Part shown: positions 29,714 through 44,303 of the stretch, one piece after another
Position numbering within the stretch: the stretch's first letter is position 1
How the letters are laid out: the number at the start of each line of letters is the position of its first letter
Assembly: GCA_013152755.1 (NCBI GenBank)
Contig: JAADFR010000004.1
Span: 5,032 to 63,123 of the forward strand
Direction: 5' to 3'
Origin: Alphaproteobacteria bacterium
GTDB taxonomy: Bacteria > Pseudomonadota > Alphaproteobacteria > Sphingomonadales > Emcibacteraceae
DNA: 58,092 nt
Program-made: the position numbers and the translations under genes
The notes under the pieces: model-generated
Database searches by the model: none
The model's input: only the letters and a program-made list of their open reading frames with translations
Told to the model about the DNA's origin: nothing

Positions 29714-30904
29714 ATGACCAGCATCTTTTCCCAGATCATAACCGTGGTGATGATGAATATCCGCAGCCTGCCTAGGCGGTTCTGGATGTCATTGGCGGCG
29801 ACTTTAGCCATTGCGGTTGTGGTGGCAGTACTGCTGTCTTTTCTGTCCATGTCCAACGGGTTTCGCAAAACGCTGGAGGGTGCTGGGACAGAGGATACGG
29901 CCATCATCACCCGCAGTGGCTCTAAATCAGAACTGAATAGTGTGCTGTCCAACGATGTGGTGAATATCATCACCACGGCTCCCGGCATTGCCAAGGATGC
30001 CAATGACAGGCCCATCTATTCCGCAGAACTTTATGTGGTTGTGGACGGCATAAAACGCACCACCAACACCAAGGTTAATATCCCCATGCGCGGCATTTCT
30101 CAAACCGGTTTTGATTTGCGCAAGAATGTGAAGATCACAGAAGGCCGCATGTTTGAACCGGGTAAGAATGAAATCATTGCCGGGGCGTCTATTCAGCGGG
30201 AATTTTCCGGCTTTGAATTGGGCAACAGGGTCAAGTTCGGTAAGACCACATGGACGGTTGTCGGCATATTCAGCACCGGTGGTTCCGCTTTTGAAAGTGA
30301 GCTTTGGGCCGATGCCCGGGTGTTGCAAAGTCAGTTTCGCCGGGGTAACAGCTTTCAGACTGTCCGGGTTCTCTTGTCGGAACCGGGCAATATTGATGGC
30401 CTGTTAAAGGCAGTTGAGGATGACCCGCGCCTGATGCTGGACATTCAGACCGAAGCTGACTTTTTCAAAGAACAGGGTGAGGCCCTTGGCGGCATGGTAA
30501 AGCTCGGCTGGATTTTGAGCATCGTCATGAGCCTTGGGGCCTTGGCCGGGGCATTGAACACCATGTATATATCGGTGACGGAGCGGGAGCAGGAAATCGC
30601 AACCCTGCGGGCTATTGGTTTCAGCAATATTTCCGCCTTTTTCGGTACCTTGGTTGAATCGCTTGTCCTGTCTTTACTGGGCGGCATCATTGGGACTGTG
30701 GCGGCCTATCTGTTCATGGATGGTTTGACCACCTCAACCCTTGGCGGCAATTTTACCCAGGTGGCGTTCACCTTTGAAATGAGCTCAGATCTCCTTATGA
30801 ACGGGATCATTCTGGCCCTGATTATTGGCCTTGTGGGGGGCTTTTTCCCCGCATGGCGCGCCGCCCGCCTGCCCGTCGTCCTCGCCTTTCGCGGCGGGGC
30901 GTGA
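29714..30904 (+). CDS. ABC transporter permease, FtsX/MacB type (second)
   Basis: A 396-aa paralogue of the preceding permease with the same layout: one N-terminal helix (about 20-42), a periplasmic domain, and three C-terminal helices with TEREQEIATLRAIGFSN. The arrangement adaptor, ATPase, two permeases is common among Proteobacteria for export of lipids or small hydrophobic molecules. No outer-membrane TolC partner is in the window. Confidence 0.92.
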   Translation: MTSIFSQIITVVMMNIRSLPRRFWMSLAATLAIAVVVAVLLSFLSMSNGFRKTLEGAGTEDTAIITRSGSKSELNSVLSNDVVNIITTAPGIAKDANDRPIYSAELYVVVDGIKRTTNTKVNIPMRGISQTGFDLRKNVKITEGRMFEPGKNEIIAGASIQREFSGFELGNRVKFGKTTWTVVGIFSTGGSAFESELWADARVLQSQFRRGNSFQTVRVLLSEPGNIDGLLKAVEDDPRLMLDIQTEADFFKEQGEALGGMVKLGWILSIVMSLGALAGALNTMYISVTEREQEIATLRAIGFSNISAFFGTLVESLVLSLLGGIIGTVAAYLFMDGLTTSTLGGNFTQVAFTFEMSSDLLMNGIILALIIGLVGGFFPAWRAARLPVVLAFRGGA

Positions 30905-30938
30905 GGGCAGGGCGTTATTATGTGAAAATTGGGGGCTG

Positions 30939-31490
30939 TTAATTGCCGAAGGCTTCCCTTATGACGGTATTTATATTACTGCAACTGCCACCAGCTTTTT
31001 TAAGCCATATTTTTTTCAGGGTAAGGGACCATTTGTTTTTTATGGATTTGGTGTCCTGAAAAATAATTCCACCTAAAGAACTAGACTTTTTCTGCCCACC
31101 GCCACTCGTACTATATCTGGATATTTTCCAGCCATTTAAGGGCCAGCCAGGATTTTTATTGAAAGCATCCAGTCTATATTTATCTGAGTATCCTGTGGAC
31201 TTTCGCGCAAGGATTAAAGCTGCTTTTGGCGAGTTTAGTTTTTTATGGTAACATTTTAGGCCATTAGGGAGGGGCAAAAACACAACGGTAGCATCAGATA
31301 CATATTTCCTTTTTATGAAGTTATACGTAAGGCATTTGAATCTGGCACCGTTATTTACCGCCTTTGAATATGCGTGTAAAAGGTTCGCGTTCTTTATTTC
31401 ACATTCTGCCGCCATGAGCGTGCTACTGCTAAATATGGTAATAAGGGTTGTCGCGGCGATGGTTCTGGCTAAGGTATATTGTTTCTGCAT
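30939..31490 (-). CDS. Secreted four-cysteine protein A, unknown function
   Basis: A 183-aa exported protein. The signal peptide begins MQKQYTLARTIAATTLITIF and is cleaved near LMAA-EC. The mature part has cysteines at about 30, 53, 80 and 170, enough for two disulfides, and is basic. Start ATG 31490 has GGGAG about 10 nt upstream; a much longer in-frame extension running into the regulator gene is rejected. The C-terminal half resembles the product of 33174-33689: W-K/F-I-x-R, a GG pair, then SL and SCxN at the end. A TCAAGCA tandem-repeat site lies 68 bp upstream. Confidence 0.8.
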   Translation of the reverse strand: MQKQYTLARTIAATTLITIFSSSTLMAAECEIKNANLLHAYSKAVNNGARFKCLTYNFIKRKYVSDATVVFLPLPNGLKCYHKKLNSPKAALILARKSTGYSDKYRLDAFNKNPGWPLNGWKISRYSTSGGGQKKSSSLGGIIFQDTKSIKNKWSLTLKKIWLKKAGGSCSNINTVIREAFGN

Positions 31491-31558
31491 TTGATATGTC
31501 TCCCTTTGGTCAAAATTATTTTCGACTATGTTCAACCATAAGGAGACAGTAATGACTT

Positions 31559-31586
31559 TGCTTGATTGTTCTTTGAGGAAGTTTGA
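31559..31586 (-). promoter_or_regulatory. Tandem TCAA-repeat operator, site 3
   Basis: Reading on the minus strand: TCAAA (31586), TCAAA 10 bp on, and TCAAGCA (ending 31559) 21 bp from the first. The phasing 0/10/21 is the same as at 33084 and 33708. It lies 68 bp upstream of the secreted protein A start. A possible -10, TATGGT, follows 18 bp after the last half-site. Confidence 0.55.
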
Positions 31587-31647
31587 GGGGAATGTGAAAA
31601 ATGAATAGCCGGGAAAGAAAAGAAATATTGCTGAAAAACGGCGTTTC

Positions 31648-32994
31648 TTATAACTTTTTATCGTGGGACTGAAGCCAGTCGGAAACTTTCTGGTCAATGC
31701 CGGACGGAAAGGGGACCGCGTCTTCCACGCCAACATAAAGCAAACACATATCGTCCCGTTGCAGGAAGACCTGATGATATTTATTGATCCAGAAGGTCAA
31801 ATGTTTACGGACATTTTCGAGTTTTGGCACTTCCCGGATCAGGGTCGGGTTGCTTTCCAGCAGCGTGAGCATATTGCGGTTGCCTTGGTATAATGTTCCT
31901 TCTGTCATGGCGCGTATCTGATCAAAAATAAACCTTTCCTGCTTGTTCATCTGATCAAAATAGGTAATGAAGAATTTTTCATACTGTTGTTTGCGCTTGA
32001 TGTTGAGCCGCTCGGTGATCAATTGAACCAATTCATTGCGCCGCCGGGCCTGGGCCACAAAGGTCACATAGGTATTTTCAAGGTTGATATGCATCCGGTA
32101 CATATCCTGAAAAATTTGATCGGGATGTTGCATCAGGATCGACAGGGGCAGGGGGAAATAATCCGACGACCGGTTCATGGTGCTGGCCACCGCATCGCGC
32201 AGGGCGGAAATCAGGAAAATCTGATTGGAACTGATCAGTTCCCTTTCTTCTTCCTTGATACCGTCCGACATCACCTGATAGCGGTAGGCGGCCCCTTTAC
32301 CGTTCTTGCGTATGGTAATCAGAATAAGCTGACTGCATTTGTCACTGTCACAATAATGTTCGTACAGGCCCACCCCCCCGGTATCGGTGTCATGAGTTTT
32401 GTCTTTGAGGAGAATCATATCATCCTGAGACAAGGCCCAATCTTCCAGAATATCATTTAATTGGGATTTTTCGGAGCTGGACATATTAATCAGGGCGGTA
32501 ACATCACGCCTCTCCGGTGGGCTGTCGGAAAGATAGTTAATGCCGATTAACAGGGCGATCAGGAACAGTAAGCCGACTAATAAATATTTTAATAAAACCG
32601 GATTGTCGGTAGGGGCAGGCGGGTCGTCCGTATCTACTTCCGGGACCGGTGCCTCAGAGGAAGGCAACAGCTTGAAACCTTCATAAAACTGAAACCCGCG
32701 CCCCCTTATGGTTTGGATGATGCGTTGGTTGTCTCCGTCATCACCCAGCATCTTCCGTGTGTCAGAGATCAGACGGGACAAGGCCCAGTCGGTAATTTCC
32801 TGATCAGGCCACAGGCGGTCAAGCAGGTCATTTTTTTCGACCCAGTCCGGGGAAGCCTGAATAAGGCAGGTGAGAAGATCAATGGTGCGCAGGTCCGCAT
32901 TTACGGCTCTACCATCCCGGAACAGCCGTTGTTTTTTCACGTCCAGAATAAAATTTTCAAACTGATAGATTACATCAGCCATACCATCCATCAT
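31648..32994 (-). CDS. Membrane-anchored winged-helix regulator, CadC/ToxR-like
   Basis: A 448-aa one-component regulator. Residues about 8-105 form an OmpR/Trans_reg_C winged helix (YQFENFILDVKKQRLFRDGR at the start; the recognition region IIQTIRGRGFQFYE at the end). A Pro/Asp-rich linker follows, then one transmembrane helix (about 134-154) and a periplasmic sensor domain of about 290 residues with a Cys pair in EHYCDSDKC. It lies between two related secreted-protein genes and beside an outer-membrane barrel operon, all three preceded by the same tandem repeat. It is the probable activator of all three. The input signal is unknown. Confidence 0.88.
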   Translation of the reverse strand: MMDGMADVIYQFENFILDVKKQRLFRDGRAVNADLRTIDLLTCLIQASPDWVEKNDLLDRLWPDQEITDWALSRLISDTRKMLGDDGDNQRIIQTIRGRGFQFYEGFKLLPSSEAPVPEVDTDDPPAPTDNPVLLKYLLVGLLFLIALLIGINYLSDSPPERRDVTALINMSSSEKSQLNDILEDWALSQDDMILLKDKTHDTDTGGVGLYEHYCDSDKCSQLILITIRKNGKGAAYRYQVMSDGIKEEERELISSNQIFLISALRDAVASTMNRSSDYFPLPLSILMQHPDQIFQDMYRMHINLENTYVTFVAQARRRNELVQLITERLNIKRKQQYEKFFITYFDQMNKQERFIFDQIRAMTEGTLYQGNRNMLTLLESNPTLIREVPKLENVRKHLTFWINKYHQVFLQRDDMCLLYVGVEDAVPFPSGIDQKVSDWLQSHDKKL

Positions 32995-33083
32995 ACCCCA
33001 TTTTTTTATTTTGCTGTTGTTTCAGATTTGCTTTTGTCGTTTTTCAGCATTTTTTTATAAAAAAACGTTGCCCTTTTCTTTGA

Positions 33084-33111
33084 TCAAGCTTTTTCACTTT
33101 CTGCTCAAGCA
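33084..33111 (+). promoter_or_regulatory. Tandem TCAA-repeat operator, site 1
   Basis: TCAAG (33084), TCACT (33094) and TCAAGCA (33105-33111) form three direct half-sites at 0, 10 and 21 bp. The 13 bases TTCTTTGATCAAG at 33076-33088 are identical to those at site 2. The site lies in the divergent region between the regulator and secreted protein B, 62 bp before the latter. A -10-like TATTAT (33130-33135) follows 18 bp after the last half-site. Confidence 0.65.
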
Positions 33112-33173
33112 CAGATTATTTTTTTCTAATATTATACATGTAATTGCAATAGTAAAAAGATTTTAAAAGTTTC

Positions 33174-33689
33174 ATGAACAAAAATTTGTCTTTAACATCA
33201 GTTCTGGCAGTGCTTTTGCTTGGCGTTTCTGTGTCACAAATGACCAAAGCCATGCCCTCAAAAGTCAATTGCCGGGTGATATGGTCGGACTTTTCGCAAA
33301 CTTTAAAGCAAAAAAATCGCACATTATCCCTCCGCCATGTCATCCCGAAAAACAGCAGTAGCCAGAATATCAAATATTGCCGACTGGATGAAGAAGCAGG
33401 CAAGTTGACCATACTGCCTTTTGGACCGGAGGATCATTTTTGTGAGTTACGGTTTCCCGCCGTGTCCAAGAAGCTGAAAAATGACTGGTTTATTCAGCGT
33501 CTTGATGTTCTTGCCGGGGGGGCGCGCTGGCGTATGAAGCGGGATCATGGAACCGGGGGTTTTGTGCTTAACCTGCAGGGGGACAATCGGCGCAGTTATA
33601 GCTTGCGCATCACATCCCTTTATTTGCGTAATCAGAAAAATGATGCGTCCTGTCAAAATGTTGGGAATGGCTGGAAAATGCTGTTCTAA
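33174..33689 (+). CDS. Secreted four-cysteine protein B, unknown function
   Basis: A 171-aa exported protein with signal peptide MNKNLSLTSVLAVLLLGVSVS, cleaved near TKA-MP. Cysteines are at about 33, 69, 90 and 160. The C-terminal half aligns with secreted protein A: NDWFIQRL, AGG, TGGFVLN, YSLRITSLYLRN, ASCQN. The two are probably distant paralogues that diverged on opposite sides of the regulator gene. The ribosome site is weak. It precedes the outer-membrane barrel gene but has its own operator. Confidence 0.8.
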   Translation: MNKNLSLTSVLAVLLLGVSVSQMTKAMPSKVNCRVIWSDFSQTLKQKNRTLSLRHVIPKNSSSQNIKYCRLDEEAGKLTILPFGPEDHFCELRFPAVSKKLKNDWFIQRLDVLAGGARWRMKRDHGTGGFVLNLQGDNRRSYSLRITSLYLRNQKNDASCQNVGNGWKMLF

Positions 33690-33707
33690 ATATAATTTCT
33701 TCTTTGA

Positions 33708-33735
33708 TCAAGGTATCTCAACCAACCGTCAAGCA
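33708..33735 (+). promoter_or_regulatory. Tandem TCAA-repeat operator, site 2
   Basis: TCAAG (33708), TCAAC (33718) and TCAAGCA (33729-33735) repeat the 0/10/21 bp phasing of site 1. The preceding 8 bases are identical to site 1. It lies 50 bp before the barrel start at 33786. The spacing to a -10-like element (TATGAT, 33758) is less regular here. Confidence 0.65.
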
Positions 33736-33785
33736 ATCCATCGTCCTGCTATGCCACTATGATTATGTGGAACGAGGGAAATAAA

Positions 33786-35873
33786 ATGATCTGTCAAAAT
33801 AATATAAAAATATGGCTTATGTTGGCATTATCACTATGTGGATTTCAGGCCAGCGCTCAAGAGGAAACAAGTATAATATTCCGAACAAAGGAAATTACGA
33901 TCCCGTTATCGGAATTGTCCGGAGCTTTGTCACCGGAACAAGGTTTGGCTGAGGCTACTGTTAAGATAAACGGTGTCATTATAAATGATTTTACCCGTAT
34001 GGGGGATGATCGTCTTTATGTCATACCGCCCTTGCAGGATAAAAAAGAATTTAATCTGATCATCACTAATAATGACGGTGATATTTTATACCGGAAAAAA
34101 TATCGTCGTCCTCATAAGGGTGAATTTTTCGATGATGTCAAAGCCGGAGCTGAAATGGATATGACCCTGAATGGGGTGGGACATTTTGAGCCGGTGCCCA
34201 AACAGGATGATTTTGATAAAACGCAAATGGATGCCAATGCTCAGGCCCGGCTTTTTGTTCATGCCAAACGGGGGAGCTGGACGGTTGGTCTTGAAAATGA
34301 CTGGCAAGTGGTGAGCAACAGCCAACAGACTTTGCGTCCCGAAGGCTCCCTTCTTGATCTGGACCGGGGGACGGCTTTTCTGAAATATGATGATGGCCAA
34401 AATGCGTTGCAGGTCAGTATGGGCGATGTGCAGGTTTCCGGTGTTAATCCGTTGGTGTCATCGGGGATGAGTTCCCGGGGGGCCAATGTTACCTTTACCG
34501 GCCTGAAGGGGCGGCTGCGCATTTCCGCCGCACAGGTCTTTGGGCAGGATATTCGGGGCTTGACGGAAGGGGTGCTAGCCTTGCGGCGGGAGAATTATCG
34601 CCGCAGTTTCGATATGGAGGCCGATGTCATGACCTCTGATATGATGAGTGTAACGGTTAGCACATCATTCTATAAAGCCAGCCGCCCGTCGAATTTTGGC
34701 TTTAGAACAAGCTATGTGCCGGAAGGGGAGACTAACCTTGTTCGTGGGATAGGGGCCCGAATAACGCTATTTGAGGCGGCTTTTTCCATTGAGGGGGAAT
34801 ATGCCTGGGCGGCCTATGAAAATCCGGCGGCGTTAAATGATTTTAATACGGTGCCGGGGGCCCTTGAGGCCGGAAAAGATGAGGATTCCGCCCGGCATAT
34901 ACGCCTGAGCTGGCAGGGCTGGACAGGGAATATTGCCGGACAGGACGCCAGCCTTAATATTTTCGGGGACTATCGCCGGAACGGGGCTTTGTTTAATGCC
35001 ATACAGGCCGGGATACAGGCAGACCTTGATCGCCGGGAACTGGCCGGGAATCTTCAGCTCGGCCCGCTGAATATGCAGATCGGCCATGTGCGGCTGGTCA
35101 ATAATGTGGATGATGTTGCCGGTATCCTCAAAACAAAACGCAATCAGACTGAAATAGCCCTTCAGTTTGATATGACACGCTTTGCGGATATGGATGATGA
35201 GCTACAGCCCTTTGGCCTGACATCACTGTTGCCAGACAGCATAGAGGTGGCCTATCGCCGGGACCGGGAAACCACTTTGAATGGCGATATTGTCATTAAT
35301 AATTCCAGTCTGGAGGGCAGTGAATTGCCTGATACCAGTGAGAATAACTGGACGGTTGCCTTGAACTGGAGTTGGCCCATGGGGGCGACGTCCTTGGGTT
35401 ATAGCCATAATTTTTATGACAGTCGGCAAATTGGCCGTGAAACAGCCGACCGCCGGAACCGGGTCTGGAATGCCTCTCAAAGTCTGTTTGGGGACGTATG
35501 GGAGATAGAAGGCCATGCCACATGGGCGCAGGATGATAATCTGGATATTGACAGCAAATCACAGGAAAATCAGCTGGATTGGGGCGGGCGGATTGGCCTT
35601 AACTTTCCTGACCTGCCCACGTTACTGATCAGTTATGATCAGGGTCGCACCAAATCACAGGATTTTGTTTTTTTGGAGAATTCCCTGAACCGGACCAAGA
35701 GACTTGATATATCCATAAATTTTTCACCCTATGTGGCAATTTGGTGGCCCGATGATCTTCCGCCACAGATTAGCCTGAATTTTCAGTATAGTGATGGTAT
35801 GTTCTTTTCCGATTTCTTTGAAGAAAAAAACCGTCAGGCTTCTGTTACCCTTAACCTGAGCAAGAGTTTCTAG
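33786..35873 (+). CDS. Outer-membrane beta-barrel protein of unknown function
   Basis: A 695-aa exported protein. Signal peptide MICQNNIKIWLMLALSLCG is cleaved near ASA-QE. A small N-terminal beta domain (about 25-110) precedes a long region of alternating aromatic/polar strands. The C-terminus reads VTLNLSKSF; the final Phe is the outer-membrane assembly signal. ATG 33786 has GAGGGA 6 nt upstream and is preferred over ATG 33759. No TonB box, plug domain or usher motif is recognisable, so it is neither a clear receptor nor a clear usher. The next gene follows by 17 bp and encodes an exported partner. Confidence 0.8.
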   Translation: MICQNNIKIWLMLALSLCGFQASAQEETSIIFRTKEITIPLSELSGALSPEQGLAEATVKINGVIINDFTRMGDDRLYVIPPLQDKKEFNLIITNNDGDILYRKKYRRPHKGEFFDDVKAGAEMDMTLNGVGHFEPVPKQDDFDKTQMDANAQARLFVHAKRGSWTVGLENDWQVVSNSQQTLRPEGSLLDLDRGTAFLKYDDGQNALQVSMGDVQVSGVNPLVSSGMSSRGANVTFTGLKGRLRISAAQVFGQDIRGLTEGVLALRRENYRRSFDMEADVMTSDMMSVTVSTSFYKASRPSNFGFRTSYVPEGETNLVRGIGARITLFEAAFSIEGEYAWAAYENPAALNDFNTVPGALEAGKDEDSARHIRLSWQGWTGNIAGQDASLNIFGDYRRNGALFNAIQAGIQADLDRRELAGNLQLGPLNMQIGHVRLVNNVDDVAGILKTKRNQTEIALQFDMTRFADMDDELQPFGLTSLLPDSIEVAYRRDRETTLNGDIVINNSSLEGSELPDTSENNWTVALNWSWPMGATSLGYSHNFYDSRQIGRETADRRNRVWNASQSLFGDVWEIEGHATWAQDDNLDIDSKSQENQLDWGGRIGLNFPDLPTLLISYDQGRTKSQDFVFLENSLNRTKRLDISINFSPYVAIWWPDDLPPQISLNFQYSDGMFFSDFFEEKNRQASVTLNLSKSF

Positions 35874-35890: not shown

Positions 35891-37255
35891 ATGGCCTATA
35901 GAAAATCGCTGATTTTTTCTTTGTTAGTCATCACCACCCTCCTTCTGTTCTATACAGAAGTCAAGGCGGATATGAGGCGCAATCCCACAGGTGTGAATGT
36001 TTCCACAACGCGTCCCACCTCACTCTCTATCCGCTTTGCTGATAATCAGGGGGCACAGTTCACAACAACAGAGGCCCTGTTCTGTATGAGGTTGCAATCA
36101 AATGGGGCTTGCGCGGCGGGGACTATTCTGGGCCGGTTGCCCGTTGTTTTTGACCGGGGGTCCACCAGCGTGGGTCGGTCAAATATCACTGATATTATGA
36201 CCATTCCTTTTTCCGTGGTCCGTACTGCTGTATCTCAGGCCCGTCAGGGCGCTTTCTCTGATTTCTTTTATGTGCGCCGGTTCAGCCCGGTGGGCAATGC
36301 AGACCTTGGGGCCGGACCGGGTGTTGATGTCTTTGTCAGTGTGACCTGTCGTCTGGCGGGGGGAACGTCACGCACGCCTCTGTCCTTTTCCAACGTCAAA
36401 ATCATGGGTTTGGATGATAATAATGCTACAGGGCAGAAGATCATCACCCTTGATCCTAAAAACCTGGAAACCGGGCGGGTCATTGCCAATCTTGAATATA
36501 CCGGACGGGGCCAATTGCAGGGCTGGTGGGAGGTTCGTCGTCCGGGAGATCCGGAAATAACCCCTCTGGATCTGTTGCCGGAAGCCTCTCTGACACAGGC
36601 GGAGCGGGCAAAACAGACCCGTTTTTTCCGGGTGAAGTATTTTAATATTACCCTGCCCAATACGGGGTCATACGACCTTGTTGGCCCGGCCTATAGCGAA
36701 TTGCCGGCGGACCTTGGCGGGGCCTATCGTTTGTTGCTGCGCCTGAAGGTGAGCCGTGACCGTGAGGCCCTGTCCAATCTGACCATTTTGCCTGCGGCTC
36801 CCGTGCCACCCGTAACGCCGCCGCCATCTTTGGGCGCTACCGGGGCCTCCAAGAAAATACGGGCAACAACCCCGGCGACCACTGAACCGCGTCTATCCTT
36901 TTCCGGGGGAGCTGCTGGTTTTCCCATTTTCCCTCTTGAATATAGGGTTCCGGCCAATCTGTCAGCATTCTCTGTGAAAGAACTTTCTGCCCGGTTGATG
37001 ACAGATGGGAAAGACTATAGTCTGACCTGGCGGCCCGTAGATGACAGCCGCCTTGTTGTTAAGCTGGTTCTATATACGCCGGAGGGCAGCCAAACCTATT
37101 ATTTGCCGGCCGCAAATCATATAAGCCATTTGCCGATGAGCTGGGCAAAGGGGGTGCCGCCAACAGGGGCAACTGTTACCCTGCTTGGGCCTGATAATGC
37201 TCAGATGGGTAAAGAAATACGGTTGGAGATCACGCCCTTAAAACCGGAAGAGTGA
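35891..37255 (+). CDS. Exported protein, partner of the outer-membrane barrel, unknown function
   Basis: A 454-aa protein with signal peptide MAYRKSLIFSLLVITTLLLFY cleaved near VKA-DM. The N-terminal half (about 27-170) is beta-rich with cysteines near 65, 73 and 156. A middle domain (about 180-290) and a Pro/Thr-rich linker (about 298-335) lead to a C-terminal beta-sandwich-like domain. The N-terminal half has a faint look of secreted pilus or coat subunits, but this is not strong enough to name. The GAAGGA ribosome site and 17-bp gap show cotranscription with the barrel. A terminator follows at 37309-37338. Confidence 0.78.
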   Translation: MAYRKSLIFSLLVITTLLLFYTEVKADMRRNPTGVNVSTTRPTSLSIRFADNQGAQFTTTEALFCMRLQSNGACAAGTILGRLPVVFDRGSTSVGRSNITDIMTIPFSVVRTAVSQARQGAFSDFFYVRRFSPVGNADLGAGPGVDVFVSVTCRLAGGTSRTPLSFSNVKIMGLDDNNATGQKIITLDPKNLETGRVIANLEYTGRGQLQGWWEVRRPGDPEITPLDLLPEASLTQAERAKQTRFFRVKYFNITLPNTGSYDLVGPAYSELPADLGGAYRLLLRLKVSRDREALSNLTILPAAPVPPVTPPPSLGATGASKKIRATTPATTEPRLSFSGGAAGFPIFPLEYRVPANLSAFSVKELSARLMTDGKDYSLTWRPVDDSRLVVKLVLYTPEGSQTYYLPAANHISHLPMSWAKGVPPTGATVTLLGPDNAQMGKEIRLEITPLKPEE

Positions 37256-37360: not shown

Positions 37361-38218
37361 TTATTTTTTGCGTCTACGCATCATCGTGCCAAACAGGCCA
37401 AGCCCGCCCAACAGAAGGCCAATGACCCCTGGTTCTGATACCGGAGTTGATTGACGCAGGCTTGTTGTTTGAGGTAAGCCACCACCAGCAGGTGTGCTGG
37501 GGTCACCGGTATTGGCCGGGAATTCAATCCATGAGGTCTGGAAAGGAGCCGCTACGGGAGACAGGCCCGCCGTAAAGCCAAATCCTGTCAGATTTCCACC
37601 TTCGTCGATACAAGGGGCCGTATTCAGGAAATCACACCCAGCTTGAATCTGTGGGTCAACATACCAATGTAAAACAAAGGTGTTACTGTCAAAGGGGTTG
37701 CTGTTGGCGCCGTAAATATTATCAAAAATAATATTCCAGGGGTCGGATGGGTTTTGCCATACAGCGATACCATCCCACCCTGTAGAAGAGTTGACGACAC
37801 CGACGGTTTCGATATTCCAGTTCCAGCCAGAAGGGGATGTTATACTTGTCAGATTAACCCCGCCCACTTCTGAAATAAAATTACCCTGGTTATCATAATC
37901 GCCGAAAATAGGGATTTCCCAGTCACGAATGATGAACTGACTTCCTCTTATGGGGCCTGCATCAGTAAACTGAGCCTCTATATTTGGGGAAAGGGATAGG
38001 TTGCATACGCGATATGCGTAATCAAAGCCACCAGCGCCATTGGCTGTTACAACATCGGTAACGGCAGAATTTTGACCGACCAATTGGGTTGTTGGGCATG
38101 CTGTTGGGCTTGGGGCTATAGTGATGGCATAAGCGTGTGATGATGTTGCCATGCCAAGAACAAGAGATGTCCCCATTATTGCGGCAACAGAAATTGTGGA
38201 GAGGTATTTTTTCTTCAT
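37361..38218 (-). CDS. PEP-CTERM-type sorting domain protein 3 (SEP variant)
   Basis: A 285-aa exported protein with signal peptide MKKKYLSTISVAAIMGTSLVL cleaved near SHA-YA. The body is unrecognised, with several cysteines. The C-terminal sorting signal is VSEPGVIGLLLGGLGLFG followed by MMRRRKK, so the first Pro of PEP is replaced by Ser. Such SEP variants occur in the family and may still be processed. ATG 38218 has AGGAAG upstream. A sigma-54 promoter (38294-38309) and an activator element (38385-38401) precede it. Confidence 0.88.
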   Translation of the reverse strand: MKKKYLSTISVAAIMGTSLVLGMATSSHAYAITIAPSPTACPTTQLVGQNSAVTDVVTANGAGGFDYAYRVCNLSLSPNIEAQFTDAGPIRGSQFIIRDWEIPIFGDYDNQGNFISEVGGVNLTSITSPSGWNWNIETVGVVNSSTGWDGIAVWQNPSDPWNIIFDNIYGANSNPFDSNTFVLHWYVDPQIQAGCDFLNTAPCIDEGGNLTGFGFTAGLSPVAAPFQTSWIEFPANTGDPSTPAGGGLPQTTSLRQSTPVSEPGVIGLLLGGLGLFGTMMRRRKK

Positions 38219-38293
38219 TTTCTTCCTAACAAATTTATTTATTTATGAGAATGTGTAAATTATTACTTTCTGTACATTCAACTTTGTGAAGAA

Positions 38294-38309
38294 TGCAATT
38301 TTGGGGCCA
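38294..38309 (-). promoter_or_regulatory. Sigma-54 promoter of PEP-CTERM gene 3
   Basis: The minus strand reads TGGCCCCAAAATTGCA, with GG and GC 10 bp apart, matching TGGC-N8-TTGCA. The start of transcription would be near 38283, with a leader of about 65 nt. Confidence 0.82.
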
Positions 38310-38384
38310 AGAGTTATATATCACATTTTATTGTTTTATTTCATGTAGTTGGGTAAAAATCAGAAATACTCTACAATGACAAAC

Positions 38385-38401
38385 TGTAAAGAATCCTGAC
38401 A
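38385..38401 (+). promoter_or_regulatory. Upstream activator element of PEP-CTERM gene 3
   Basis: TGTAAAGAATCCTGACA is an imperfect dyad (TGTAA-N7-TGACA) that matches the arm of the palindrome at 1865-1901 in 16 of 17 positions. It lies 75 bp upstream of the sigma-54 promoter of the minus-strand gene. It is also about 180 bp upstream of the acyltransferase operon on the plus strand, but no -24/-12 promoter was found there. In the rest of the gap 38219-38582 I see only a 14-bp dyad, GCCAAT-TC-ATTGGC, at 38462-38475. Confidence 0.65.
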
Positions 38402-38582
38402 GTTTTTAAGGTTATCTCATATATTTTTTACACTTTAGTAGATTTTGCGGTGTGCAAACTCGCCAATTCATTGGCTCTCTGTTCGTATTCTTAACTAAAA
38501 CGGGGAATTACTGTTTATCGTCTCTGTTAAACTATTCCTTAACGGTGTTAGGTATAGAATCATGTGGTAATTATTATTTAAT

Positions 38583-39407
38583 ATGCAGAGATCAGGCATT
38601 TATATGAAGAATCAGCTTTCAAAGCAGAAAAATTGTGATACACAGCCCGGCGGGGACGTGCAGCTGGTAACCGATTATAATATGCTATTTGATGTCATTG
38701 CCGCAGATACACCGGCCCTCCTTGAGGAGTGCTTTAAACTGCGCTATCAGGTTTATTGCCTGGAAACTGAATTTGAAGATAAAAATCAATTTGTGAATTG
38801 TCTGGAGAGGGATGTCTATGATGACAGATCCGTTTCTAGTTTGCTCATCCATAAAAGTACCGGAATGGTGGCTGGAACGGTCAGGCTGATATTGCCGCCA
38901 AGTGAGGCTCTGCCGGACCCTCTGCCGGTTTTTAATATATCTTCTGATTTAGCCGGGTTGAGCGAACAGGTCATTCCACGGCAGACAACGGCCGAGATTT
39001 CCCGGTTTTCCATTTCAAAGAAATTCCGTCAACGGCATTATGATACGCATATTCCGGGCCTTGAGGAAAATATTGGTGGTGTGAACAACGCGAACAGGGT
39101 CATACCCCACATCACACTCGGGCTTATGAAAGCCATTGTCAGAATGAGCGTTGAAAATAATATTTCGCACTGGTCGGTTGTTATTGAACCAACATTACAG
39201 CGTCTGCTGAGAAAGCTTGGTATTTATTTTATTCCCGTTGGTAAGATGGTAGAATATCATGGCAGGCGCAGAACATTATATAATGAAATTAGTGTCCTGC
39301 TTGATAGAATGTATGAGACACATTATGAAATTTGGTCGGTTGTAACAGATTACGGCCAATTGTGGTCTTATCATGGGACATATGAGAGCAAAGAAGTTTA
39401 TAAATAA
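38583..39407 (+). CDS. PEP-CTERM/exosortase system-associated acyltransferase
   Basis: A 274-aa protein of the exosortase-associated acyltransferase family, a GNAT-like fold related to autoinducer synthases. Recognisable segments are LRYQVYCLETEFED (about 52-65), CLERDVYDDRSVSSLLIHKSTGMVAGTVRLILP (about 72-105, quoted in parts by the family) and EISRFSISKKFR (about 138-149). The substrate is not known. ATG 38604 is an alternative start with AGG upstream. It precedes the TPR lipoprotein and the E1/nitroreductase gene on the same strand. Confidence 0.88.
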   Translation: MQRSGIYMKNQLSKQKNCDTQPGGDVQLVTDYNMLFDVIAADTPALLEECFKLRYQVYCLETEFEDKNQFVNCLERDVYDDRSVSSLLIHKSTGMVAGTVRLILPPSEALPDPLPVFNISSDLAGLSEQVIPRQTTAEISRFSISKKFRQRHYDTHIPGLEENIGGVNNANRVIPHITLGLMKAIVRMSVENNISHWSVVIEPTLQRLLRKLGIYFIPVGKMVEYHGRRRTLYNEISVLLDRMYETHYEIWSVVTDYGQLWSYHGTYESKEVYK

Positions 39408-39491
39408 ATGATAATAAAACTATCATGTCAAAATTTGAATTAGCATGATATTATAAACCTGTTGACCTAAACAGTCTGAAGCGAGGAGATT

Positions 39492-42317
39492 ATGGTGTTA
39501 ACCCAATCCGTTATCAAAATTTTATCAGGAGCCAGAAAGACCGGTACAGGGCTTTTAATGGTCATTATGGCAACGTTGTTATTGTCTGCTTGTGGCGGGG
39601 AGGATTCGGTTAGTCTGGAAGACCGTATGCAACGTGCCCTTGACGGGCAGTCGGACGGCGATCTTAAAACCGCTGTTATTGAGTTGAAAAACGCACTCGT
39701 TACCTACCCGGACAGTCAGGATGCCCGGATTTTACTGGGGCGAATTTACCTTGAACTTGGTATGGGCGCGGCGGCAGAAAAGGAAATTTCAAAAGCGGAA
39801 GAATTAGGTGCTGATGAAAATATGGTCATCCTGCCGCTGGCGGAAAGTTGGCTATTACAGTATAAATTAGATGAAATTATCGAGAGACTTTCCTATGAAC
39901 CAGACAGTGTAACGGCTGTTTCTTTGGGGAAACGTTATTTTCTGGGGGCGGCGTATCTCGGCAAGGGAGAGATCAAAAAGGCAGAGGGGTATTTTGATGA
40001 GGTTCTTCAGGCGACGCCCGGCAATATGAAAGCCCTTGTGGGCAAGGCACGCATCAGTTTTATTCGGAAAGACATTGAAAATACGGATAAATATATTGCC
40101 CTTGCGGAGGCTATTTTACCAAATAATCAAGAACTTTTGCAATTGAAAGCAAGCCGTAGCTGGACGGCGGGAGATTTTGAGGCGGTCGAGGGGTATTATC
40201 GCAAGCTGGTTGAATATTATCCCAGCTATAACATTAACGAGGTATATCTGGCATGGGTGGAGCTGATAAACGGTAAAGCCGATGAGGCCGGACCACGCCT
40301 TGCAAAACTCAGAAAAATAGCGCCTGAGTATAGTCTGGTCAATTTTGTTTCTGCCTTACATGCCATCATAGAAAAGGATTACTCTGGCGCAAAGGAATAT
40401 GCAGAAAAGGTATTATCAAGGGTTCCGGGTGATTATAGAACGAAATTCATTGGGGCGACAGCAACATATGCTCTTGGTGAATATGAGCAGAGCTATGCCT
40501 ATATCCAGCAATATCTGGAGGTTGTACCGGATGATGAGCGGGCAAAGGAACTTCTGGTACAGCTGCAAGTTCGAATGAACAAAAATGAAGAGGCCTATGC
40601 AACCCTGAAAGACCTTAGCGATCAAGCTGAGAAAAAAGAGAAGTTTCTCAATATTCTAGCAAGTTATGAGTTGCAAAAAGGTGATATTGAGCAGGCCCGG
40701 CAACACCTGGAACAGTCTTTGGATGAAAACCCGGATCAGGTGAAAAGCCGTCAGAAACTCGCTTATATGAAAATAGCAGATGGGGAGGTTGATGAAGGTC
40801 TGGAAGAGATGGAGCGCGCCCTTGAAGGGATTTCCAGTAAATATAAGCGTAAATTTGAACAGGCTAAAACATTAATTATTGTACAAAAATATACAGAAGC
40901 CATGAAAGTTTGTCAGGAACTGAAAAAGATTGATTCTGAAAATATTAAGGGGATTTTATGTGAGGCTAGGGTTTTGTATAAAAAGGGTGACGAACAAAAA
41001 TCTTTACCTGTTTTGGCCAAAATTCTGGAGAAGGATGCGGGAAACCCTGATGCGTCACGTATGATAACGGCAATTTACCTGAGAAATGATGAGTTTGATA
41101 AAGCGCAAGCGGTTCAGGTTCAATATTTAAAAACTCATCCGAAAGATGCAAGGTCGGTTTTTGGTATGTATATGCTAAAAATGAAGACGGGAGCAAAGGT
41201 AGAAGCTATTGAATATTTGAAAAAATCCGTGGAATTGGCCCCAAATGCGCGTAAGCCGATTCTGGAATTAGCACGTTATTATTTAATTTCAAAAGAGCCG
41301 GAAAAGGCTCTTGAGGTAAGTGACAGGCTTATCAAGCTAGCGCCTAATGCACAAGGGTTGCTTGAAGTCAGAGGCAAAGCTCAAATGGCACTGAAGCGGT
41401 TTGTGGAGGCTGCGCGGTCATTTGAAAAACTTGCAAAAATGAATCCGGGTAACATCGCCGCACTGTATCTTCTTGCCGCTGCTCACGATGGGGGTGGTGA
41501 TTATAGGAAATTGGAGCAAGTGGTTCAGGAGATATTATCTATAAAGCCAAATGATACAAAGGCCCGAATTTTTCTGGCAAAGGCTGAGGCTTCAAAGGGA
41601 AATTGGCAAAAGGCAGATGACATTCTGTCAAAAATCAAGGGTAATTATAAAAATAATGCGGAATATTTTTCACTCAGAGGCCGGATAAATATCGTTAAAA
41701 AAGATTATGACAAGGCGCTCGGTTTCTTTAAGAAAAGTTTTCAGACAGGCAAGAGCACAGCAACATTAATACAGCTTGCAACAGCCTATCGTCTTTCTGG
41801 CAATATGACAGCTGCCATTGACTTGTTGGCGGATTGGCACCAGAAATACCCGGTTGATATGTTTGTTGTTCCGCTACTGGGGGATTATTATCTTAAAGGT
41901 GGTTCCTATGAAAAAGCTATCGAAATATATACTCTGATTCTGGAGAAACAGCCTGATCAACCTGCGGTGCTGAATAATATGGCATGGGCACTCTACAAGT
42001 TGGATAGGAAAGACGAGGCTCTGTCTGCGATCCGCAAGGCGCGTGAGATCAAGCTGGATGTTGCGGAATTCTTTGATACGGAAGCTGAAATTCTTTTATC
42101 GCAGGGGAAAGTCAAAGAGGCCATCCGGCAATATAGAAAGGCCACGGATAAGGCGCCAAGTGACCTGAAATACCAATACCACCTTACTCTGGCTTTGGTT
42201 AAAGCGGGGCAACAGGAAGAAGCCATTGGTCTGTTAAAAGATTTGAAGGCGGATGGTCGTTTATTTGAGGGACAGAAAGAAGCCTTTGACCTTTTGGATC
42301 AGCTTCAAGCAGAGTGA
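39492..42317 (+). CDS. prsT: PEP-CTERM system TPR-repeat lipoprotein (PrsT-like)
   Basis: A 941-aa lipoprotein, close to the usual size of this family. The lipobox LLSAC places the lipidated Cys at 34. The rest is nearly continuous TPR repeats (for example DARILLGRIYLELGMGAAAEKEI, and the last units near 830-930), so it is probably a periplasmic scaffold attached to a membrane. GAGGAG lies just before the ATG; GTG 39495 is an alternative with better spacing. In other proteobacteria this family is linked to PEP-CTERM and exopolysaccharide loci, often beside prsK and prsR, which are not here. The E1-like gene follows by 6 bp. Confidence 0.9.
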   Translation: MVLTQSVIKILSGARKTGTGLLMVIMATLLLSACGGEDSVSLEDRMQRALDGQSDGDLKTAVIELKNALVTYPDSQDARILLGRIYLELGMGAAAEKEISKAEELGADENMVILPLAESWLLQYKLDEIIERLSYEPDSVTAVSLGKRYFLGAAYLGKGEIKKAEGYFDEVLQATPGNMKALVGKARISFIRKDIENTDKYIALAEAILPNNQELLQLKASRSWTAGDFEAVEGYYRKLVEYYPSYNINEVYLAWVELINGKADEAGPRLAKLRKIAPEYSLVNFVSALHAIIEKDYSGAKEYAEKVLSRVPGDYRTKFIGATATYALGEYEQSYAYIQQYLEVVPDDERAKELLVQLQVRMNKNEEAYATLKDLSDQAEKKEKFLNILASYELQKGDIEQARQHLEQSLDENPDQVKSRQKLAYMKIADGEVDEGLEEMERALEGISSKYKRKFEQAKTLIIVQKYTEAMKVCQELKKIDSENIKGILCEARVLYKKGDEQKSLPVLAKILEKDAGNPDASRMITAIYLRNDEFDKAQAVQVQYLKTHPKDARSVFGMYMLKMKTGAKVEAIEYLKKSVELAPNARKPILELARYYLISKEPEKALEVSDRLIKLAPNAQGLLEVRGKAQMALKRFVEAARSFEKLAKMNPGNIAALYLLAAAHDGGGDYRKLEQVVQEILSIKPNDTKARIFLAKAEASKGNWQKADDILSKIKGNYKNNAEYFSLRGRINIVKKDYDKALGFFKKSFQTGKSTATLIQLATAYRLSGNMTAAIDLLADWHQKYPVDMFVVPLLGDYYLKGGSYEKAIEIYTLILEKQPDQPAVLNNMAWALYKLDRKDEALSAIRKAREIKLDVAEFFDTEAEILLSQGKVKEAIRQYRKATDKAPSDLKYQYHLTLALVKAGQQEEAIGLLKDLKADGRLFEGQKEAFDLLDQLQAE

Positions 42318-42323
42318 TGAGTT

Positions 42324-44303
42324 ATGACCCCTCCGGACTTTTCCCATGCAGAGGCCTTTGCCCGGAATTTGGGCTGGCTGACGCAGGGCGAACTTCTATC
42401 TCTTCGCCATAAAAGGGTAGCCATTCCCGGCATGGGCGGGGTTGGGAGTGCTTATCTTCTGGCTTTGGTGCGGCTTGGCGTGTCAAAATTTCATATTTCG
42501 GATATGGATATTTTTGAACAGGCTAATTTCAACCGTCAGGTGGGGGCTTTCATGTCCACGGTGGGACGGCCAAAAGTAGAGGTCATGGCGGAAATGGCCG
42601 CCGATATTAACCCGGAAATAGATATCAAGTCTTTTGGTGATGGTATATCCAAAGACAATATCGACGCCTTTCTGGAGGGTGTGGATATATTGGTTGATGG
42701 CTTTGATTTCTTTGCCCTTGATATTCGCCGCGATGTTTTTAAACGCTGTCATGAGCTGTCAATCCCGGCCATTACCTGTGCGCCGGTGGGCATGGGGGCT
42801 GCGTTATTGTCTTTCATGCCGGGGAAAATGAGTTTCGAGGACTATTTCAGAATTACGGATCAGGACAGTGAAGAAGACAAATATATTAAATTTCTGATCG
42901 GTCTGACACCGCGTCCGGCCCATCGGGGGTATCTGGTGGATCCGTCATATGTGGATATGAAAAACCATAAAGTCCCCTCGACCCCAATCGGCATACAATT
43001 ATGCACGGGCCTTATTGTGACAGAGGTTCTGAAGGTTCTTCTGGAGCGGGGCGGTGTCAAGGCCGCGCCTCATTACCAGCTTTATGATGCTTACCGGGGT
43101 ATCCTCAGGAAAGGCTATATTCCGTATGGCAATGGCAATCCGCTTCAACGGCTTAAATATTTCTTTGGCCGGATGCTGTATGCCAAAATGTCAGAAACCG
43201 CGACGCAACAAGAGGACGCGCCGCTGTCATCCGTCATGGAACAGATCATTGATCAGGCCCGTTGGGCACCTAGCGGGGATAATACACAGCCCTGGCAGTT
43301 TGAGATCAAAAGTGAGCGGAAGATCATCGTCCATATCCCGGAGATCGAACAGGATAATCTTTATGAGTTTGATCATGGTAGGCCCACTTACCTGGCCGTC
43401 GGCATGATGATGGAAACCCTGCGGATGGCGGCCTCCTCTCATGGCCTTGCTCTGCGTTGGGCATTAGCGAAAGATGCTGTGTGGGATGGCCGGGCGCAGG
43501 AGATAACGGTAAATTTCAGGAAGCTCAAGAAAACCGTTTCGGATGATCTTCTGGATTATGTACCGTTGCGCTCTGTGAATAGATTTTCCTATCAGACAAA
43601 GGCTCTGCCGGATCGGGCCAAAAAGCTGCTTTCAGATGAAATAGACGAATTATTTGATATTCAATGGTTTGAAAGTCCGGTTGAGCGGCGGCGTTTCTCC
43701 CGCCTCAATGCGGCGGCAACGGATATTCGGCTTCGTCTTGAAAAATGCTTCAAAGTACACAAAAAAATCATCGACTGGACGGCGGGCAACAGCCGGGAAG
43801 GCGTACCGGCGGGGGCCGTGGGCATGGACAAGGTCAGCCTATTGCTCATGAAGCAGGCCATGAAAAGCTGGTCCCGTATGGATTTTATGAATAAGTATAT
43901 GGGCGGCACCCTGCTTGCTCAATTACAGATGGATATTCTGCCGGGCCATAAATGCGCGGGCCATTTTGCGCTGCTCTGGAAAGATGGGGGCAAGAAAGAC
44001 CTTGCCCATATAATGCAGGCTGGGGAGAAATTACAGCGTTTCTGGCTTCAGGCCACCAAACAGGGGTTGGTGATGCAACCGTCCATGGCGACCATTTGTT
44101 TCAGCTATTACGCGGAACAGGGCATCGACTTTTCCGAGGGTAATCTTACCCTTGCCAATAAGGCAACCCGGCTTGGTAATGATTTTGACACCTTGCTGGG
44201 CGGACGTCTGTCAGATGTGGTTTTTTCCGGCAGAATAGGCTATCCGGGCAAGATGCGAACACCTGAACGGTCGATCAGGAAGAAACTTCAGGATTTGTTA
44301 TAA
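42324..44303 (+). CDS. ThiF/E1-like adenylyltransferase fused to a nitroreductase domain
   Basis: A 659-aa two-domain enzyme. Residues about 10-270 form an E1/ThiF fold with the nucleotide loop GMGGVGS (36-42), the NFNRQ arginine motif and a Cys in ITCAPVG; the zinc CxxC pairs of MoeB/ThiF are not evident. Residues about 300-650 form a nitroreductase-like flavin domain with ARWAPSGDNTQPWQF. The architecture resembles the Rv1355c-type family. It starts 6 bp after the TPR lipoprotein gene and is surely cotranscribed with it. An adenylated and redox-tailored small molecule or peptide product is plausible (inference). It overlaps the convergent CoA-binding gene by 6 bp. Confidence 0.88.
   Translation: MTPPDFSHAEAFARNLGWLTQGELLSLRHKRVAIPGMGGVGSAYLLALVRLGVSKFHISDMDIFEQANFNRQVGAFMSTVGRPKVEVMAEMAADINPEIDIKSFGDGISKDNIDAFLEGVDILVDGFDFFALDIRRDVFKRCHELSIPAITCAPVGMGAALLSFMPGKMSFEDYFRITDQDSEEDKYIKFLIGLTPRPAHRGYLVDPSYVDMKNHKVPSTPIGIQLCTGLIVTEVLKVLLERGGVKAAPHYQLYDAYRGILRKGYIPYGNGNPLQRLKYFFGRMLYAKMSETATQQEDAPLSSVMEQIIDQARWAPSGDNTQPWQFEIKSERKIIVHIPEIEQDNLYEFDHGRPTYLAVGMMMETLRMAASSHGLALRWALAKDAVWDGRAQEITVNFRKLKKTVSDDLLDYVPLRSVNRFSYQTKALPDRAKKLLSDEIDELFDIQWFESPVERRRFSRLNAAATDIRLRLEKCFKVHKKIIDWTAGNSREGVPAGAVGMDKVSLLLMKQAMKSWSRMDFMNKYMGGTLLAQLQMDILPGHKCAGHFALLWKDGGKKDLAHIMQAGEKLQRFWLQATKQGLVMQPSMATICFSYYAEQGIDFSEGNLTLANKATRLGNDFDTLLGGRLSDVVFSGRIGYPGKMRTPERSIRKKLQDLL

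Follow-up and report, generated by a model that had tools for sequence, protein, structure and literature searches.

OmpR/PhoB response regulators combine an N-terminal receiver with a C-terminal PF00486 winged helix, and their operators are typically direct repeats with half-sites spaced by about one helical turn. ToxR of Vibrio cholerae has its winged helix at the N-terminus and a single transmembrane segment, and two reports describe its box as TNAAA-N5-TNAAA repeats every 10 bp (PMC8517210, PMC4829181); one of them presents ToxR as an activator, repressor or coactivator (PMC8517210). CadC of Escherichia coli has been modelled head-to-head on two TTAxxxxT sites, not on direct repeats (PMC5430869). 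For PEP-CTERM protein genes, two papers describe sigma-54/PrsR control through a GG/GC promoter (-24 GG/-12 GC) with an upstream TTTACA motif (PMC9850573, PMC1569441), and the founding paper regards further PEP-CTERM regulators and motifs as still to be found (PMC1569441). In our literature search, Emcibacter was not found in connection with PEP-CTERM, and PEP-CTERM appeared together with CadC only in a hydrocarbon-biosensor review.

The stretch analysed here (the window) comprises 58,092 nt of assembly GCA_013152755.1 (contig JAADFR010000004.1, positions 5,032-63,123, forward strand). The source assembly, labelled G000, contains 2,895,410 bases in 191 contigs and is 95.5% complete. It was compared within a panel of 60 genomes including G000, with a genus subset of 16 also including G000; the relatives are draft assemblies for the most part. 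Our main reading, to which we assign a probability of roughly two in three, is that a set of repeated sites in this genome are operators of a ToxR/CadC-type membrane regulator (31648-32994), which would activate genes for exported and PEP-CTERM proteins. The features of the window concerned are as follows.

30939-31490, minus strand: secreted protein A, 183 aa; its start resembles a signal peptide (by eye), and no Pfam family was matched
31552-31597, minus strand: candidate operator array of gene A, five TCA(A) half-sites, core at 31559-31586, 68 bp from core to ATG (31490)
31648-32994, minus strand: regulator, with a PF00486 winged helix, one hydrophobic segment and a C-terminal domain without a Pfam match
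33076-33088, plus strand: 13-mer TTCTTTGATCAAG, also at the barrel site, including the palindrome TTGATCAA
33084-33111, plus strand: candidate operator of gene B, half-sites at 0, 10 and 21, in the divergent gap, 90 bp from the regulator start
33174-33689, plus strand: secreted protein B, 171 aa, a weak paralogue of A
33708-33735, plus strand: candidate operator of the barrel gene, half-sites at 0, 10 and 21
33786-35873, plus strand: putative outer-membrane protein ("barrel"), 695 aa from the ATG at 33786
35891-37255, plus strand: 454-aa protein, beginning 17 bp past the barrel gene, no family found

A sequence-only reading of the window had proposed a layout common to three promoters, TCAAR-N5-TCA-N8-TCAAGCA, and the pattern scan matched it exactly at 31559-31586 (minus), 33084-33111 (plus) and 33708-33735 (plus). 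The proposed distance of 50-68 bp to the start codon was also reproduced, with 68 bp for A, 62 bp for B and 50 bp for the barrel gene when measured from the site end; the listed 265-aa frame of protein A has an over-extended start, and its true ATG was taken as 31490. Site A proved longer than the three half-sites originally proposed, having five (TCAC, TCAA, TCAA, TCAA and TCAT at -11, 0, 10, 21 and 31) with a mean step of 10.5 bp. The 13 bases said to be shared by two sites are indeed common to B and barrel, where TTCTTTGATCAAG has its only two exact matches genome-wide (33076-33088 and 33700-33712), and are absent from site A; the site numbering in that reading apparently switches between B and A. 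The regulator had further been thought to control itself through the first site. If this means A's site, the proposal is not supported; that site is situated past the 3′ end of the gene for the regulator. Because B's site lies in the divergent gap and fronts the regulator, the candidate autoregulatory site is B's, not A's, and the single array in this gap reads TCAA toward B and TTGA toward the regulator. When up to three mismatches were allowed, the window contained nine matches compared with a shuffle mean of 3.56, and nine were reached in 2 of 100 shuffles.

Proteins A and B have a C-terminal stretch in common (16/61 identical, E 2e-4 in a single comparison). The "barrel" label was taken over from the sequence-only reading, and no family or solved-structure match stands behind it. 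The 454-aa gene is perhaps co-transcribed with the barrel gene. Barrel orthologues were found in 2 of 32 genomes, the second being a 111-residue end piece at a contig edge in G014, and when the DNA of 30900-33800 was compared with five genomes, only the regulator gene was matched, in G003 and G011.

In the regulator, the PF00486 domain occupies residues 32-103 (E 9.4e-13, 48.5 bits against a cut-off of 26.2). Hydropathy reaches its maximum of 2.66 at residue 134, in a segment of about residues 133-155, and all other windows remain at or below 1.6. The protein thus has the ToxR/CadC-type features of an N-terminal winged helix and a single hydrophobic segment behind it. The structure prediction was of low quality (mean pLDDT 38.9). 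The nearest solved structures by sequence were CadC (5ju7, E 1.2e-7), in which the winged helix is equally placed, and ToxR (8b4b, E 3.6e-5), with likeness confined to the winged helix; all NCBIfam matches, HilA/EilA and CadC first, were far below their cut-offs. The OmpR/PhoB response regulators share the winged helix and the direct-repeat operators with this locus, whereas no receiver was found here and the winged helix is N-terminal, followed by the hydrophobic segment. The G000 assembly contains eight PF00486 genes. The remaining seven frames carry the domain at their C-terminal end, with a receiver-like start (by eye) in five (L156, L157, L158, L160 and L162) and an unclear start in L159 and L161; therefore, the regulator is the only protein of ToxR/CadC layout seen among the eight. 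Near full-length orthologues were present in 3 of the 60 genomes (G000, G003 at 69% and G011 at 67%), and some winged-helix match in 27 of 60. A scan of a species-genome collection recovered one locus in a bin assigned to Emcibacter sp. and one in an alphaproteobacterial bin, apparently the same as those of G003 and G011, and none of the 202 matching plasmid records covered 80% of the regulator.

Across the G000 assembly, the exact pattern had four matches, the three window sites and C148:14451-14478, compared with 0.05 expected from half-site frequencies in 86 kb of G000 sequence. The frequency is therefore well above chance and not at the genomic background that would have spoken against the proposed motif. 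Five one-mismatch matches were found, of which the four inspected lay inside open frames and the fifth lies on C114; the backwards-read pattern gave none. Because the pattern was fitted to the first three sites, the fourth is a fair out-of-sample test. It forms part of an array with TCAA at -10, 0, 10 and 21 (10-10-11 spacing) and lies 71 bp upstream of a gene whose 373-aa product has a start resembling a signal peptide (by eye). The 373-aa protein was found in only 1 of the 16 genus genomes, G000 itself. No orthologues suitable for cross-species footprinting of the A, B, barrel and C148 promoters were found in these searches. The notion of an accessory regulon is indirectly supported in that the sites stand before a small group of genes for exported proteins, although its autoregulatory part, as far as it concerned A's site, is not supported. 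In the other genomes, all nine exact matches (eight genomes) fell inside reading frames, so that in this sample the exact 28-bp form precedes genes only in G000. Conservation in relatives is correspondingly mixed: the half-site and its phasing are kept, but the exact 28-bp pattern and its orientation are not.

Phased TCAA arrays were also found upstream of PEP-CTERM genes. In G011, a single PEP-CTERM gene lies between the regulator orthologue (67%) and an array of four TCAA units at exact 10-bp steps, which is about 100 bp upstream of this gene; its 254-aa product scored 22.2 bits against a TIGR02595 cut-off of 16, and the Pfam match was below its cut-off. A second four-unit array on G011 contig C18 is upstream of two more PEP-CTERM genes. 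In G000, contig C7 carries a three-unit array with the flank TTAATTTTGTTTGAATAAG, followed by a 407-aa PEP-CTERM protein. Among the 60 genomes, this 19-mer flank occurs exactly only at C7 and the two G011 arrays, the same three places from which it was written, and G000 and G011 are two of the three regulator-bearing genomes. A single match with two mismatches is present in each of five further genomes; when up to two mismatches were allowed, the backwards control gave nine matches against eight for the pattern, so only the exact matches stand out. Beyond the array, the C7 and C18 promoters also have TATATCTTA and CTCTTATATGC in common, and these matching promoters of two species differ in unit number, with four units in C18 (L056 1490-1562) and three in C7 (L123 6540-6660), 10 bp each. 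The encoded proteins differ at least partly, a DUF3466 match being present only in the C7 protein. Because of the common flanks, the two G011 arrays and that of C7 are probably copies of one promoter and not independent. No array was found in G003, whose assembly is 64% complete and whose regulator (69%) lies on a contig that stops about 160-220 bp upstream of it. The PEP-CTERM gene of the window (37361-38218) has no array in front.

One alternative is chance, with frequent TCAA words in A+T-rich intergenic DNA picked out by eye. A genome should contain about 4.8 instances of three TCAA words at 10-11 bp steps, and such triplets were present in all six genomes tested, as this explanation would predict. 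However, the exact pattern recurs at a fourth promoter, and four-copy arrays are expected only 0.06 times in a genome of this size, whereas G011 has two with flanks in common. Chance is accordingly very improbable.

Whether the window-type sites and the PEP-CTERM arrays represent one motif or two deserves closer consideration. The orientation toward the gene is TCAA at four window-type sites and TTGA at three PEP-CTERM arrays; the third half-site is also spaced differently (0-10-21 against 0-10-20-30) and the kinds of target differ, and two systems with different regulators could therefore be envisaged. Their spacer letters are nevertheless alike. Scored at bases 6-10 with a matrix built from the G011 and C7 units, the first units of A, B and barrel averaged 1.63 bits compared with -4.8 for 568 TCAAR words (P 0.003; 0.0006 when the first C148 unit was added and 0.0003 with both C148 units), in a test of few units that are related to one another. 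The barrel unit alone was unremarkable, with 19% of background words scoring as high. In addition, for either type there is one genome in which its arrays are linked to this regulator gene, and the 10-10-11 spacing of the C148 array is intermediate. Two separate systems thus appear rather unlikely, and a single membrane regulator probably recognises TCAA words repeated once per helix turn before several exported-protein genes.

Looser searches indicated how far the half-sites can be used as a marker. In the 16 genus genomes, TCAARN5TCAN{7,8}TCAAG gave 33 matches in 13 genomes; its control gave 0 in all 16, which is implausibly good and was set aside. Of the 30 matches with context, 22 lay in frames of at least 100 aa, five were described arrays and three lay between genes at other places, one of them in G001 and the other two at a position conserved between G014 and G000:C13; site A had to be assigned to the arrays by hand because the over-extended frame covers it. 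The remaining three comprised two at the C148 site and one on C40. At L080 (G000:C13) and L068 (G014:C243), a conserved intergenic TCAAAATGGATCACTTACT[AC]TCAAG was observed, in both genomes 155 bp upstream of a gene of the same kind. Three TCAA words at 10-11 bp steps gave 32 matches in six genomes, compared with two for the control. Among the 30 with context, 18 were in frames of at least 90 aa, eight were described arrays (overlaps counted, site A by hand) and four were intergenic elsewhere, namely two in G013, one in G008 and one on G000:C57; the two without context were on C148 and C171. In G013, which lacks a full-length orthologue, the two triplets (L103 and L110) precede secreted-looking genes by 93 and 115 bp, and for this reason TCAA triplets alone are not diagnostic. 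Similarly, the p145-proS surroundings contain one triplet scoring 11/12 in each of L145, L146 and L152, that is, three in 44 kb of relatives without the full-length regulator compared with two places outside the sites in the 58-kb window. In L145 (G004) the triplet is found about 85 bp upstream of p145, and in G000:C7 an extra triplet is present between p145 and the array (L123 6737).

The G013 triplets are also what might be expected if another protein, for example one of the seven other PF00486 proteins of this assembly, bound the arrays and the membrane regulator were a mere neighbour. This assignment would also fit the one-turn direct repeats, which are typical of OmpR/PhoB response regulators. 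Nevertheless, in two genomes arrays occur together with the regulator, at loci that are unrelated to each other, and the exact PEP-type array was found only in regulator-bearing genomes. Another binder is therefore unlikely, and the sequence evidence points to the regulator beside the sites as the likely one.

Under the main reading, the cytoplasmic winged helix would read TCAA half-sites every 10-11 bp on one helix face, and because the half-sites share this face, several membrane-held monomers could bind side by side. Bound just upstream of the promoter, the regulator would most likely activate its targets. The predicted exported targets are A, B, the barrel gene with the gene after it, and the 373-aa protein on C148, and the predicted PEP-CTERM targets, reached via the more regular arrays, are those of C7 in G000 and of C28 and C18 in G011. 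The regulator gene itself is probably a further target, through the B site in the divergent gap. Repression is a possible though doubtful alternative, in which the bound regulator would cover the promoter and be released by its signal. The window-type arrays end 50-71 bp from the start codons, near enough to overlap promoters, and ToxR can take any of three roles, including repressor (PMC8517210). By eye, no -35/-10 pair was resolved near the window-type arrays.

Control by the membrane regulator would make this an orderly yet not unprecedented kind of regulon, and by analogy its operators would work like those of ToxR. The tox-box is a direct repeat with a 10-bp step, and the seven arrays step by 10 or 11 bp; however, the tox-box has two TNAAA half-sites, whereas the arrays have three to five, mostly TCAAG. 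An exact tox-box is present in two of the seven (A and C7) and absent from the other five; the single tox-box match of B falls outside its array, and the 58-kb window contains six such matches. The proteins resemble each other only in the winged helix, the C-terminal domain here being without a Pfam match. The head-to-head arrangement modelled for CadC (PMC5430869) differs from the direct repeats found here. PrsK/PrsR also controls PEP-CTERM genes, and PrsT is encoded in the window; nevertheless, neither GG-N10-GC on the gene strand nor TTTACA/TGTAAA on either strand was found in any of the seven array promoters (95-159 bp each), and the barrel promoter stretch has one GG-N10-GC on the opposite strand. 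The window also contains, at 37361-44303, a PEP-CTERM protein (minus strand), an exosortase-associated acyltransferase (TIGR03694), PrsT (TIGR02917) and a ThiF-nitroreductase fusion.

If correct, the main reading would provide a ToxR/CadC-type regulator with a defined operator and with a small set of targets open to testing, and PEP-CTERM surface proteins would gain a second mode of control. The three versus four units in two matching promoters would then be a natural experiment on helical phasing, copy number and operator strength.

The position of the PEP-CTERM arrays relative to p145 and proS suggested how this distribution may have arisen. The two genes lie about 70-140 bp apart in eight genus genomes (G002, G004, G005, G006, G008, G009, G012 and G013), all without the full-length regulator and without an insert; in the locus fetched from G010, neither gene was seen. 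In G000 the gap holds an array and the PEP407 gene, and in G003 the regulator is directly adjacent to proS. The p145 side of G011 carries an array, PEP254, the regulator and then an integrase-core fragment, and the proS side, on a separate contig, carries an array, PEP270 and PEP262; the two contigs are unjoined. On the basis of this comparison, a single accessory insert appears to comprise the regulator, the arrays and the PEP-CTERM genes, and from these draft genomes we infer that the regulator moved from the insert to the window's locus in the G000 lineage. As a tentative scenario, an accessory cassette of a ToxR-type regulator, phased arrays and PEP-CTERM genes may sit between p145 and proS in a few species. 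The regulator would have left it for the PEP-CTERM-associated locus of the window in the G000 lineage, where further exported-protein genes would carry its operators, with strength tuned by gain or loss of one-turn units, along a control route apart from PrsK/PrsR/sigma-54. The integrase-core fragment (rve_2/rve_3; L051 7512-7814) directly 3′ of the G011 regulator is perhaps the agent that split the locus.
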